Shown here: positions 35,535 to 40,635 of the stretch, one piece after another
Position numbering within the stretch: position 1 is the stretch's first letter
How the letters are laid out: each line of letters begins with the position of its first letter
Made by a program: the position numbers and the translations under genes
Assembly: GCA_016866785.1 (NCBI GenBank)
Contig: VGLH01000016.1
Location: 1-40,921, forward strand
DNA: 40,921 nt
From: Candidatus Poribacteria bacterium
GTDB taxonomy: Bacteria; Poribacteria; WGA-4E; GCA-2687025
Reading direction: 5' to 3'
The notes under the pieces: generated by a model
Told to the model about the DNA's origin: nothing
Seen by the model: only the letters and a program-made list of their open reading frames with translations
The model's database searches: none

Positions 35535-35624
35535 CGCCGTCTCCTTCGGGTGCTCGCTGCCCTTCCGCCGTCGGAACGCGCCCACTATACGGAGCGCGCC
35601 GCGAGGTGTCAACCGAACGCGCGG

Positions 35625-37446: not shown

Positions 37447-38373
37447 GTGGGCCATACCGCAAAACGCCTTGTGGTCTTGGGTTTGCTGGCGATGGCTGGC
37501 CTTGCCGCCGGCCAGCAGATCGCGTTCTCCTCCGACCGCGGCGGCAACGCGGACATCTTTGTCATGGCATCGGATGGAGCAGACCAGAAGCCTCTAACAA
37601 ACCACGTTGCGGGTGACTGGCGCCCGTCTTGGTCGCCGGACGGACGGAGGATCGCCTTCGACTCTATGCGCGACGGGAACTACGAGATCTATCTCATGGA
37701 CGCGGACGGCACCAACCTGAAGCGCCTGACGACCGACCCCGCCCGGGACTATGCACCATCCTGGTCGCCGAACGGCGGCAAGATTGCCTTCACGTCCGAC
37801 CGTGACGGGAACGAGGAAGTCTACGTCATGAACGCGGACGGCACAGCCCAAACCAATCTGACGAACAACCCGGCGCCGGATTTCGGTCCGGCTTGGTCGC
37901 CTGATGCACGGCACATCGCTTTCACTTCGCGACGCCATGGGAATCTGGACATCTATACCATGAACGCGGAGGGAGCGCGTCTGACACGCCTGACGGACGA
38001 ACCCGCATGGGACTATTCGCCATCCTGGTCACCAGATGGACGGCAAATCGCGTTTACCTCGGAACGCGACACGAACGGCGAGATCTATGTCATGGACTCG
38101 GACGGAGCAGGACAGACGCGTCTGACGAACGATCCGGCCTGGGATAGAACCCCGTCTTGGTCACCGAATGGGCGACAGATCGCCTTCTCCTCCGCCCGCG
38201 ACGGGAACTGGAACTACGAGATCTACGTCATGGACGCGGACGGGGCGGGACAGGTACGTCTGACCCACAACCCCGCCAACGATTCATCGCCTGACTGGGG
38301 CCCGCCGGGCCTTGCTGTACCTCGCCGCGAAACGGCAACGTCGTTGTGGGCTCGCATCAAGACCTCCACCTGA
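37447..38373 (+). CDS. Exported TolB/WD40-like (PD40) repeat protein
   Basis: From a GTG start with AAGGAG upstream, 308 residues begin with a signal peptide (KRLVVLGLLAMAGLAAGQQ; no lipobox). The rest is at least six nearly identical PD40 units of about 42 residues: IAFSSDRGGNADIFVMASDG, WRPSWSPDGRRIAF, then DSMRDGNYEIYLMDADG and so on, with WSPDGRQIAFTSERD. The number of repeats gives a single six-bladed propeller. It resembles the TolB propeller without its N-terminal domain; it is probably a periplasmic binding scaffold. The high similarity between the units suggests recent expansion. The C-terminus (PRRETATSLWARIKTST) is not propeller sequence. Confidence 0.88.
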   Translation: MGHTAKRLVVLGLLAMAGLAAGQQIAFSSDRGGNADIFVMASDGADQKPLTNHVAGDWRPSWSPDGRRIAFDSMRDGNYEIYLMDADGTNLKRLTTDPARDYAPSWSPNGGKIAFTSDRDGNEEVYVMNADGTAQTNLTNNPAPDFGPAWSPDARHIAFTSRRHGNLDIYTMNAEGARLTRLTDEPAWDYSPSWSPDGRQIAFTSERDTNGEIYVMDSDGAGQTRLTNDPAWDRTPSWSPNGRQIAFSSARDGNWNYEIYVMDADGAGQVRLTHNPANDSSPDWGPPGLAVPRRETATSLWARIKTST

Positions 38374-38513: not shown

Positions 38514-38933
38514 TCAGGCAGGACGGAACTGGCTAGCAAGGAGCTCCGGCAGTCGGCTTTCGAGTTCGTCCCGGACCGCGCGGAAGGCGTCGCGCGACGC
38601 CTGTGGCGATTCCGTCACCCGGGCGGGATCGGACAGCGGCATGTGAACGTGTCGGATACCGGGTGGCAACGGGGGACACACTTCCTCGGCGCACAGCGTC
38701 ACGACGAGGCAAACTCGATCCAGTGGAACCGCATCGAGCCCTTTCGCATGCTGCCACGAGGCGTCCAGCCCGATCTCAGCGAGGACTTCGATGGCGACCG
38801 GGTTGATGCGAGACGGATCGCTCCCAGCGCTGTAGACGGTTGTTCCGGGCGGTAGCAGGCTGCGGGCGATCGCCTCCGCCATCTGGCTGCGGGCCGAGTT
38901 CGCGACGCAGAGGAACAGCACGCCGCGCCTCAT
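38514..38933 (-). CDS. Low-molecular-weight phosphatase, ArsC-like
   Basis: The ATG at 38933 overlaps the coaE stop by four bases; 139 residues. It starts MRRGVLFLCVANSARSQMAEAIA with the C-x5-R-S phosphate loop, then VYSAGSDPSRINPVAIEVLAEIG and VVTLCAEEVCPPLPPG. The two cysteines (C-x4-C) take the place of the redox pair of thioredoxin-coupled arsenate reductases, where the spacing is usually C-x6-C. It is an arsenate reductase or a protein-tyrosine phosphatase of the same fold; the extra cysteines favour the former. There is no arsenite pump nearby. Confidence 0.85.
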   Translation of the reverse strand: MRRGVLFLCVANSARSQMAEAIARSLLPPGTTVYSAGSDPSRINPVAIEVLAEIGLDASWQHAKGLDAVPLDRVCLVVTLCAEEVCPPLPPGIRHVHMPLSDPARVTESPQASRDAFRAVRDELESRLPELLASQFRPA

Positions 38934-39559
38934 CGAGTCATCTCCCACCACAGCGCGCGGGCTCGCGCGTTGAGCTCGTCCAGCGTGCCGTCGTTCTCGA
39001 TGACGTAGGTGGCTCGTTGGCGCTTCTCGTCGAGCGGCATCTGGAGCGCGATGCGGCGCTCCGCCTCGTCGCGCGTCAGCGGTTTCCCTTCGCGTCGGGC
39101 CCTCGCCATCGCCCGTTCGATTTGCGCATCGTGAGGAGCCGCGACGACGACCGCCGCGTCCATGTGGCGATCGAGCCCCGACTCGAACAGCAACGGCGAA
39201 TCGACAACCACGACGCCGTCGGGATGCTCCGACAGGTACGCGTCTGCCAAGGCGGTATGCCGCGCAATCGTCCGGGGATGGAGGATCGCCATCAGTCGCT
39301 GTCGGGCTGGTTCGTCGTGAAAGACGACGCGCCCCAGGGCAGCGCGGTCGATGGCTCCTGCGGCGTCGAACACGCCCTGACCGAACGCTTCGCGCACCTC
39401 GCGCTGGACGCTGGCGTCCATGGCGAGCAGCTCGTGGACGGTGGCATCTGACGACAACACGTGCGCTCCGAGCTCCCGCCACACGGCTGCGACGGTGCTC
39501 TTGCCGCACGCCATGCCGCCCGTCAACCCGATGCGTCGAATGGGGGCTGCGTTTGGCAT
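38930..39559 (-). CDS. coaE: Dephospho-CoA kinase
   Basis: This 209-residue protein catalyses the last step of CoA synthesis. It has the P-loop IGLTGGMACGKSTVAAVWRE at the start, VLSSDATVHELL (the usual D-A-D-x2-H-x-L region), LGRVVFHDEPARQRLMAILHP, GVVVVDSPLLFESGLDRHMD and the lid MARARREGKPLTRDEAERR. Fully conserved and of normal length. It overlaps the ArsC-like gene by four bases and is preceded by an intergenic hairpin. Confidence 0.95.
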   Translation of the reverse strand: MPNAAPIRRIGLTGGMACGKSTVAAVWRELGAHVLSSDATVHELLAMDASVQREVREAFGQGVFDAAGAIDRAALGRVVFHDEPARQRLMAILHPRTIARHTALADAYLSEHPDGVVVVDSPLLFESGLDRHMDAAVVVAAPHDAQIERAMARARREGKPLTRDEAERRIALQMPLDEKRQRATYVIENDGTLDELNARARALWWEMTR

Positions 39560-39636: not shown

Positions 39637-39662
39637 CGGGTGGGAGTTCCTTGCACGAGCGC

Positions 39663-40517
39663 TTAGGACTCGCGTCGTTTGTAGCTGTGGACGGGTCTGG
39701 GTCCGGACGGCCGGCGGCCGCGATCCTGCGGACCCCGTCGGTGATCGTCGCGCCGCGTCAGTTCGCTCAGGGGCGGAGCGCCGATCACTTCGTAGCTGTG
39801 CGCCGCGTGGCGGAACACGACGACGGAGCCCTCGTCCGTCCCCAGGCTCATCTTGATCTCGAAGTGGCTGTACCAGTCGATGTTGCCCGTGAAGGACTCG
39901 CCTCCGCGCAGCACGATCTTGAGGGGCAGCTTCTTCTGTCGGGCGACGGCGAGATGGCGCGTGTCGATCTGGAACCGCTCTTTGCGCGGCTTGATCGCCG
40001 TCAGCCCCTGGCTCCTGACTCCCTCGTCGTAGGTGAGGTGCTTCTGAACAACCTCAACGTCAGGGGCTTTGTAGCAGTACTTGATCTGGAGCTTGTTGAT
40101 CCGCGTCTTCTCGCCGTTGGTGTTGACGTCGAGATCGTAGACCAGTCGCTTATGGAGAGTTCCTTCGACCGCCCCGTCGTACGTGACGAAGACCATCGGC
40201 GTCTTCTCGCGAAGCTGCTTCTCCATGTACAGACGACCGAAGCCTTCGCGTTTCTCGCGGCGCTCCTGCGGCGACATCCGTGTGCGGCTGCCGCCTCCGC
40301 GAGGTCCGCGTCGGGGTCCTCCGCGTTGCGCGTCCCCTCGACCGGGGCCACCAGGTCGAGCCCCGGGAGCGCGATGAGCGCCATCGCGAGAGCCCGGCGC
40401 GTGGTCGCCCTCTGGCGGTCTGGGACGACTCGCGCCGCCGCTGGGAACCGGGCGCACTCCCCCGCTGGGAGTCCACACGCGGGTGTGGGGAGTGGAACCT
40501 TTGGGTTTGTCCTTCAT
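39663..40517 (-). CDS. RG-rich protein with two Sm/Hfq-like units
   Basis: The ATG at 40517 is preferred; an in-frame ATG at 40568 would add 17 residues. The 284-residue product has a disordered, Arg-Gly-Pro-rich N-terminus to about residue 80 (PGGPGRGDAQRGGPRRGPRG), as in RNA-binding proteins. Residues about 105-150 (TPMVFVTYDGAVEGTLHKRL, VYDLDVNT, INKLQIKYCYK) and about 195-246 (LPLKIVLRGGESFTGNIDWY, SHFEIKMSL, VVVFRHAAHSYE) both have the Sm1-Sm2 pattern of Hfq, the second clearly (FRHA in place of YKHA). A basic tail follows. I infer an RNA chaperone with a doubled Hfq-like fold, in place of or beside normal Hfq. The gene stands alone under its own promoter. Confidence 0.75.
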   Translation of the reverse strand: MKDKPKGSTPHTRVWTPSGGVRPVPSGGASRPRPPEGDHAPGSRDGAHRAPGARPGGPGRGDAQRGGPRRGPRGGGSRTRMSPQERREKREGFGRLYMEKQLREKTPMVFVTYDGAVEGTLHKRLVYDLDVNTNGEKTRINKLQIKYCYKAPDVEVVQKHLTYDEGVRSQGLTAIKPRKERFQIDTRHLAVARQKKLPLKIVLRGGESFTGNIDWYSHFEIKMSLGTDEGSVVVFRHAAHSYEVIGAPPLSELTRRDDHRRGPQDRGRRPSGPRPVHSYKRRES

Positions 40518-40606
40518 GGTGTCATTGACAGCGCGCGGCTGTTCTCCCCCTCTCTCAGTATGGAGCATCGGCAGCGCGCTAAGCGGGCAGCCGACTCTTG
40601 TCGCTT

Positions 40607-40635
40607 ACTATAAACCAATCTTAGCCGCATGGCAA
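40607..40635 (-). promoter_or_regulatory. Strong sigma-70-like promoter of the Sm-like gene
   Basis: On the minus strand TTGCCA (40635-40630) and TATAGT (40612-40607) are 17 bases apart, each five of six matches. The predicted transcript starts at about 40600 and would include either proposed start codon. Confidence 0.7.

Follow-up and report, generated by a model that had tools for sequence, protein, structure and literature searches.

A tandem Hfq-like protein with two predicted Sm domains in the phylum Candidatus Poribacteria

Analysis of a stretch of 40,921 nucleotides from a Candidatus Poribacteria genome (the window) revealed a minus-strand gene whose product is, with high confidence, a doubled Sm/Hfq protein. 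Two Sm folds are predicted in the single chain by computation, and sequence comparison relates both halves to single-domain Hfq-related proteins of Acidobacteriota. The tandem architecture is phylum-wide and is often combined with an N-terminal cold-shock domain, which the window copy lacks. The fold and the ancestry of the protein are well supported; we infer its oligomeric state, its RNA binding and its chaperone function. The gene and its product have the following features.

39663..40517, minus strand: coding sequence of the tandem Hfq-like protein (284 amino acids, stop included in the coordinates; start set by conservation with the related loci L074 and L075)
40607..40635, minus strand: sigma-70-type promoter-like site, TTGCCA-17-TATAGT (10/12 matches; some 90 bases upstream of the start codon)
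40528..40556, minus strand: leader with a purine-rich Shine-Dalgarno-like stretch, then a 5-bp hairpin directly before the start codon
40278..40517, minus strand: N-terminal Gly/Arg/Pro-rich basic tail, residues 1-80 (from composition; predicted to be mostly disordered)
40068..40271, minus strand: Sm/Hfq-like segment 1, residues 83-150 (helix and five strands; Y-x-x-K-Q helix motif, TPMVF, ending in IKYCYK)
40086..40097, minus strand: NKLQ, the segment 1 counterpart of YKHA (Lys kept, His lost)
39966..40067, minus strand: linker with helices between the segments, residues 151-184 (from the core model)
39786..39962, minus strand: Sm/Hfq-like segment 2, residues 186-244 (PF17209 E=0.0056 and TIGR02383 E=0.0016, both under the curated cut-offs)
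39804..39815, minus strand: FRHA, residues 235-238, at the YKHA position (from the alignment with E. coli Hfq)
39666..39767, minus strand: C-terminal basic tail, residues 251-284 (from composition and pLDDT)

The tandem gene, its leader and its neighbours

The open frame of the tandem protein extends from 40568 to 39663 on the minus strand and encodes 301 amino acids. Its two nearest relatives, L074 and L075, open at an ATG matching residue 18 of this frame, followed by a block that ends in TRVWTP. Because this block is common to both relatives, residue M18 (window position 40517) is likely to be the start codon, and the resulting protein probably has 284 amino acids (39663-40517). The upstream ATG at 40568 was ruled out as the start because the later ATG is common to the two relatives.

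The initial annotation had assigned the gene a promoter of its own and had placed it among the best in the window. The TTGCCA-17-TATAGT site at 40635-40607 on the minus strand is real as a pattern, and the ranking is fair, with one site higher and one equal among the four promoter-like sites of the whole window. The best of these (TTGACA-17-TATAGT, 35584-35612, minus strand) scores 11/12, and another scores 10/12 as well. In the 2-kb stretch that holds the TTGCCA-17-TATAGT site, one promoter-like site was found versus 0.2 expected. The Shine-Dalgarno-like stretch lies about 25 bases ahead of the start codon with the small hairpin in between, and a similar layout was seen in L074 and L075. The sequence of the hairpin stem differs among these three loci, and the layout was absent from the other loci looked at.

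Two genes follow downstream on the minus strand, one for dephospho-CoA kinase (coaE; 38930-39559; PF01121, E 9.7e-45) and one for a member of the low-molecular-weight phosphotyrosine phosphatase family (38514-38933; PF01451, E 1.2e-16). The plus strand carries a gene for a protein of WD40-like PD40 repeats (37447-38373; PF07676, E 3.2e-66). A family search with the upstream 55-amino-acid fragment gave no match. In the loci compared, coaE, the phosphatase gene and the upstream frame were unmatched near relatives of the tandem gene, and the PD40 repeat protein was the sole neighbor matched, through its common repeats. No conserved hfq-type neighbor of the tandem gene was seen in these loci. In E. 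coli, hfq is flanked by miaA and hflX, whereas the tandem gene is beside neither of these and is instead followed by coaE and the phosphatase gene. The section on Hfq clades in PMC11607428 distinguishes a classic prokaryotic clade near miaA/hflX from a mobile clade to which the cyanobacterial form belongs, and that section mentions no tandem proteins.

Both ends of the protein are basic; the initial annotation had described an Arg-Gly-rich tail of 80 residues and a basic end. The N-terminal tail of 80 residues contains 19 G, 14 P and 14 R, with 4 RG and 2 RGG motifs and a net charge of +12; the last 34 residues are Arg-rich with a net charge of +6. Disorder of the tails is predicted by pLDDT values below 50 at residues 1 to 33, 35 to 77 and 277 to 284. 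The RG character is present in L074 but absent from L075, the next relative, which has a basic tail without it; the RG tail therefore marks a lineage and does not define the protein.

Predicted fold and relationship of the two segments to Hfq

A model of the core was generated by AlphaFold2 from the window sequence and 20 relatives. It reached a mean pLDDT of 90.5 and a pTM of 0.84 and showed a helix followed by five strands, twice. The model thus places two Sm folds in one chain, each with the N-terminal helix and the five-stranded barrel of the Sm/Hfq superfamily, and the pTM of 0.84 indicates that the two predicted domains have a defined placement. In the structural comparison by VIA-align, Hfq structures gave the best alignments for both copies. 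Segment 1 (core residues 12-79) matched Hfq chains at Z of about 7 (E. coli Hfq, 4qvc, Z 7.0, rmsd 1.1 over 62) and segment 2 (core residues 111-181) at Z of about 8 (Bacillus subtilis Hfq, 3hsb, Z 8.5, rmsd 1.6 over 66), Z values of 7 to 8 lying in a range that may reflect a common arrangement. Hfq accounted for 48 of the best 50 VIA-align rows, with spliceosomal Sm/LSm structures at ranks 49 and 50 (Z 6.4). Among 1106 Foldseek matches, each of the 50 that were listed is an Hfq entry. The initial annotation had proposed two successive segments with the Sm1-Sm2 pattern, a reading that would be contradicted if neither segment were predicted to be Sm-like; both segments are Sm-like in the model (Z about 7 for segment 1 and about 8 for segment 2).

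The relationship of segment 2 to Hfq was detected by direct family searches. PF17209 matches residues 205 to 255 of the 301-amino-acid frame with 16.7 bits against a cut-off of 27, and TIGR02383, the NCBIfam Hfq family, matches residues 203 to 257 of this frame with 18.2 against a cut-off of 61.7. A profile of 28 relatives, whose cores were selected from 70 that had been fetched (alignment A1), retrieved Hfq-like structures at E=1e-5, all on segment 2, besides weak NusA rows (E 0.24-0.38). Alignment of segment 2 by hhalign with the acidobacterial single domain gave a probability of 98.0 and a score of 65.6 (best of 100 column shuffles, 16.3). The earlier observation that FRHA takes the place of YKHA was borne out, residues 235 to 238 lying where E. 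coli Hfq has YKHA. Filing the tandem protein as a strict Hfq was ruled out, since the curated cut-offs are missed and there are two Sm domains per chain. The cold-shock domain PF00313 was not found in the window protein by the Pfam search.

Segment 1 was named by no curated family in the Pfam search. When segment 1 alone was compared with the PDB, Hfq was not significant (best Hfq E=0.76), and two FliS rows ranked above it. A profile of close relatives retrieved 20 loci from Poribacteria and 22 from Acidobacteriota. Alignment of segment 1 by hhalign with the acidobacterial single domain gave a probability of 98.6 and a score of 75.5, versus 19.0 for the best of 100 column shuffles. Between the two segments themselves, direct similarity is weak (probability 56), with a score of 24.1 that exceeds the best of 100 shuffles (18.2). 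As a control, a cold-shock profile, which also represents a small beta barrel, scored 9.6. These alignments indicate that segment 1 is nearer to the Hfq-related protein of Acidobacteriota than to classical Hfq. Descent from Hfq-type proteins was thus found at the sequence level, for segment 1 by way of acidobacterial Hfq_1 proteins. The core model, this acidobacterial connection and the direct comparison of the halves are three lines of evidence that mark segment 1 as Sm/Hfq too.

Comparison with known families places the protein as follows. Both halves share the Sm fold of a helix and five strands with classical Hfq (E. coli, B. subtilis; PF17209, TIGR02383), and segment 2 also shares the K/R-H-A motif and the aromatic residue at position 42. 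The tandem protein differs from classical Hfq in having two non-identical Sm domains per chain, the first of which has no His57. The closest sequence relatives of segment 1 are the Hfq_1 or Hfq-related proteins (PF21979, NF047718), including the acidobacterial single-domain proteins, with which it has Y-x-x-K-Q, TPMVF and IKYMYK in common. Segment 2 is clearly related to these proteins as well (GE, G-x-I-x-W, K). The 22 acidobacterial proteins examined have a single domain, whereas the tandem protein has two. Among long Hfq-type proteins, PMC7074383 describes, in the part that concerns Burkholderia Hfq2, a protein of 175 to 216 amino acids with a disordered Gly-rich extension. Hfq2 thus resembles the tandem protein as a long Hfq-type protein, but the same part describes one structured N-terminal region and an unstructured C-terminus rather than a further Sm domain.

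Distribution and history of the tandem proteins

A relative of the tandem protein was found in 78 of the 84 poribacterial genomes. Of the 55 genomes with a completeness of 90% or more and a contamination of 5% or less, 54 have one. Reading of the open frames of the fetched loci revealed a tandem of the window's type in 75 of the 84 genomes; three further genomes have a divergent third type alone. According to a profile made in this analysis, the tandem is joined to an N-terminal cold-shock domain in 68 of the 84 genomes; the plain tandem occurs in 16, and both forms occur in 9. In the relative at L018, PF00313 was recognized (E 1.2e-19) ahead of the tandem core; other fusions of this kind are present at, e.g., L014, L017-L031 and L133-L169. 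The divergent third type was seen at L052, L054, L063 and L066. In genomes G063, G046, G040 and G055 its match lies within open frames of about 890 to 1250 amino acids; at L054, L063 and L066 the frames have 888 to 996 amino acids, and L066 has an extra cold-shock-like unit behind.

Three of the six genomes of the window's own family gave a match, all of them plain tandems; the other three are 61 to 79% complete. The initial annotation had proposed to check whether the genome also has a standard hfq. None was found in the 95% complete assembly, in which both PF17209 and the protein itself pointed to a single Hfq-like place, the tandem gene, and PF21979 (Hfq_1, cut-off 27 bits) gave no match at E 0.01. 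Among all 84 genomes, 29 have some place over the PF17209 cut-off (best, 43.5 bits), and 22 have places over the PF21979 cut-off. Single-domain forms were also observed in the phylum. Genome G002, outside the class of the window, encodes a 96-amino-acid protein of the acidobacterial type. Small single-domain Hfq-like proteins of 119 and 135 amino acids, with different N-terminal parts and over the PF21979 cut-off, were seen at L121/L126 (G016) and L117 (G002). At L119 (G005), a protein of 195 amino acids consists of a cold-shock domain and then a single Sm-like unit; it is possibly an intermediate between the single and tandem forms.

The search of 199 Acidobacteriota genomes gave matches in 134, only 7 of which extended across both halves. 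The 22 acidobacterial proteins are single-domain frames of 87 to 186 amino acids. All seven that were tried pass the PF21979 Hfq_1 cut-off, and a profile of these proteins finds Hfq in the PDB at E=3e-8. Together, the sequence comparisons give good support to a shared origin of segment 1, segment 2 and the acidobacterial single-domain proteins related to Hfq. Searches of genome contigs with the single sequence, of viral contigs with the profile and of plasmids with the protein gave nothing useful.

A tree of the domains was calculated from 77 of 87 domain rows and 62 columns. The rows of L010, L017, L027, L045 and L049 (two each, thinned) and the divergent third type were left out, and classical Hfq is represented by E. 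coli alone, on a long branch. The first segments all grouped together (95/88), those from acidobacterial tandems included, as did all second segments (99/94), in a tree in which long branches meet. This topology favors a single duplication, preceding the spread of the tandem, over repeated fusion events. Six of the seven acidobacterial tandems were fetched as loci (L127-L132), and three are in the tree, where their halves group with the poribacterial halves. This grouping suggests transfer or older common descent.

Literature searches, in which subscription journals were poorly covered, gave no paper on a tandem Hfq or tandem-Sm Hfq. The combination of Poribacteria and Hfq gave only the FlgV paper, which names Poribacteria for FlgV and not for Hfq, and a search for Hfq in fusions of cold-shock and Sm domains led to a single review on dinoflagellates. 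Further word searches on Hfq, with the same poor coverage of subscription journals, gave no description of the tandem protein. Sun, Zhulin and Wartell reportedly noted in 2002 a double-length hfq of Novosphingobium aromaticivorans with two Hfq units in tandem. We know of no claim for that gene of phylum conservation, diverged halves or a cold-shock fusion. The Hfq-derived tandem would therefore be of a kind already known, with phylum-wide conservation, diverged halves and a frequent cold-shock domain as its particular features.

Division between the halves, a proposed ring and its alternatives

Conservation was counted in 23 aligned sequences per half, with the numbering of E. coli Hfq. Phe42, Lys56 and His57 of this protein are residues which we take to form the proximal site. 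At position 57, His is present in 20 of 23 second segments, and the commonest residues of the first segments are Leu, Thr and Ile. At position 56, Lys or Arg was counted 22 times among the 23 first segments and 20 times among the 23 second segments. Position 42 holds Tyr in 18 of the first segments and either Tyr or Phe in 20 of the second ones. In the window protein, the residues at 42, 56 and 57 are F, R and H in segment 2 and Y, K and L in segment 1. Several of the classical RNA contacts (Gln8, Tyr25, Lys31, Asp40) are changed in both halves. The conserved residues of the single-domain relative are kept unequally: at a fraction of 0.45 in segment 1 versus 0.14 in segment 2 for the helix and first strand, 0.20 versus 0.41 for the strand 2-3 region, and 0.37 versus 0.04 for the last strands. 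The last region of segment 2 keeps the general Hfq motif instead. From these alignments, the halves have retained different parts of the single-domain relative, with the Hfq histidine in the second half only.

Hfq rings consist of six Sm units joined edge to edge. Because a chain with two Sm units and a structured linker needs three copies for a six-unit ring, three chains of the tandem protein may form a closed ring of six Sm domains that alternate between the two kinds. Segment 2, with FRHA and the aromatic residue in place of Phe42, would contribute pockets of the uridine type on the side that is proximal in Hfq, and segment 1, with its Y-x-x-K-Q helix and KYCYK strand and without the His, would supply three different sites. 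RNA may be captured by the basic tails or, in most relatives, by the cold-shock domain. The whole ring would do the job of Hfq, i.e., hold and anneal regulatory RNAs and mRNAs; a global chaperone role is suggested because the tandem gene is the sole Hfq-like gene found in its genome. We consider this mechanism as a whole, a ring with Hfq-like work, to be probable.

Segment 1 might instead be a decayed structural spacer, with segment 2 alone binding RNA at three working sites and no second specificity. Segment 1 has neither His57 nor the Gly29/Glu30 loop, and on its own it was found by no Pfam or PDB search, which would fit such a spacer. However, eight residues, including Y, K, Q, T, M and K, are invariant in the 12 aligned segment 1 sequences, and segment 1 is more like the single-domain relative than segment 2 is in the helix and in the last strands. 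Decay would not preserve these invariant residues and this likeness and is therefore unlikely. The protein might also serve as a dedicated regulator of one or a few transcripts, or as a ribosome- or polymerase-linked factor, the cold-shock relatives holding the global role. The nine genomes with both a cold-shock tandem and a plain tandem, which belong to other families of the phylum, and the weak profile matches to NusA are consistent with such a division of work. However, the tandem protein is the sole member found in its own genome, and likewise in the two other genomes of the family with a match, which makes a dedicated role improbable.

The chance is slim that the tandem protein forms no ring at all and that its domains pair within the chain to give a monomeric or dimeric RNA-binding adaptor, the tails making most of the RNA contact. 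In favor of this, the edge strands of two domains fused through a structured linker could satisfy each other, the G-E and G-x-I-x-W features have disappeared from the strand 2-3 region of segment 1, and the tails are long and basic. However, after one pairing within the chain the Sm dimer would still have an open edge on either side, a state that Sm proteins normally resolve by ring closure, and both halves are conserved across the phylum. It is exceedingly improbable that the frame is spurious in high-GC DNA and that the real gene is the 320-amino-acid frame on the opposite strand (39651-40613). This reading is refuted by the conservation of the minus-strand protein throughout the phylum and is further contradicted by the pattern of differences from the nearest relative, L074 (55/34/79 at codon positions 1/2/3 over 179 codons) and by the confident predicted fold of the minus-strand product.

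The alternating ring can be extended to the phylum as a whole. We regard it as evenly balanced whether Poribacteria have replaced homohexameric Hfq with an obligate ring of two subunit types by intragenic duplication. The halves would then have divided the ancestral features: the helix and last strand would have gone to segment 1, and the loop of strands 2-3 together with the histidine motif to segment 2. Each ring would thus have two alternating RNA sites and, in most genomes, three cold-shock domains. Rings of non-identical Sm subunits are known from eukaryotic Sm/LSm proteins. There the subunits come from separate genes, whereas the tandem protein fuses two kinds in one chain. If true, bacteria would have arrived by a route of their own at the uneven Sm ring, for which eukaryotes use separate genes.

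The Hfq ring is regarded as symmetric, with the same task for each subunit. A phylum-wide Hfq that occurs in nature with two fused, divergent halves would put to the test whether all six sites must be equal, and a three-fold ring would allow asking which site does the annealing. The cold-shock fusion unites two of the main bacterial RNA chaperone folds in one protein. For Poribacteria, the tandem protein would be a candidate global RNA regulator.
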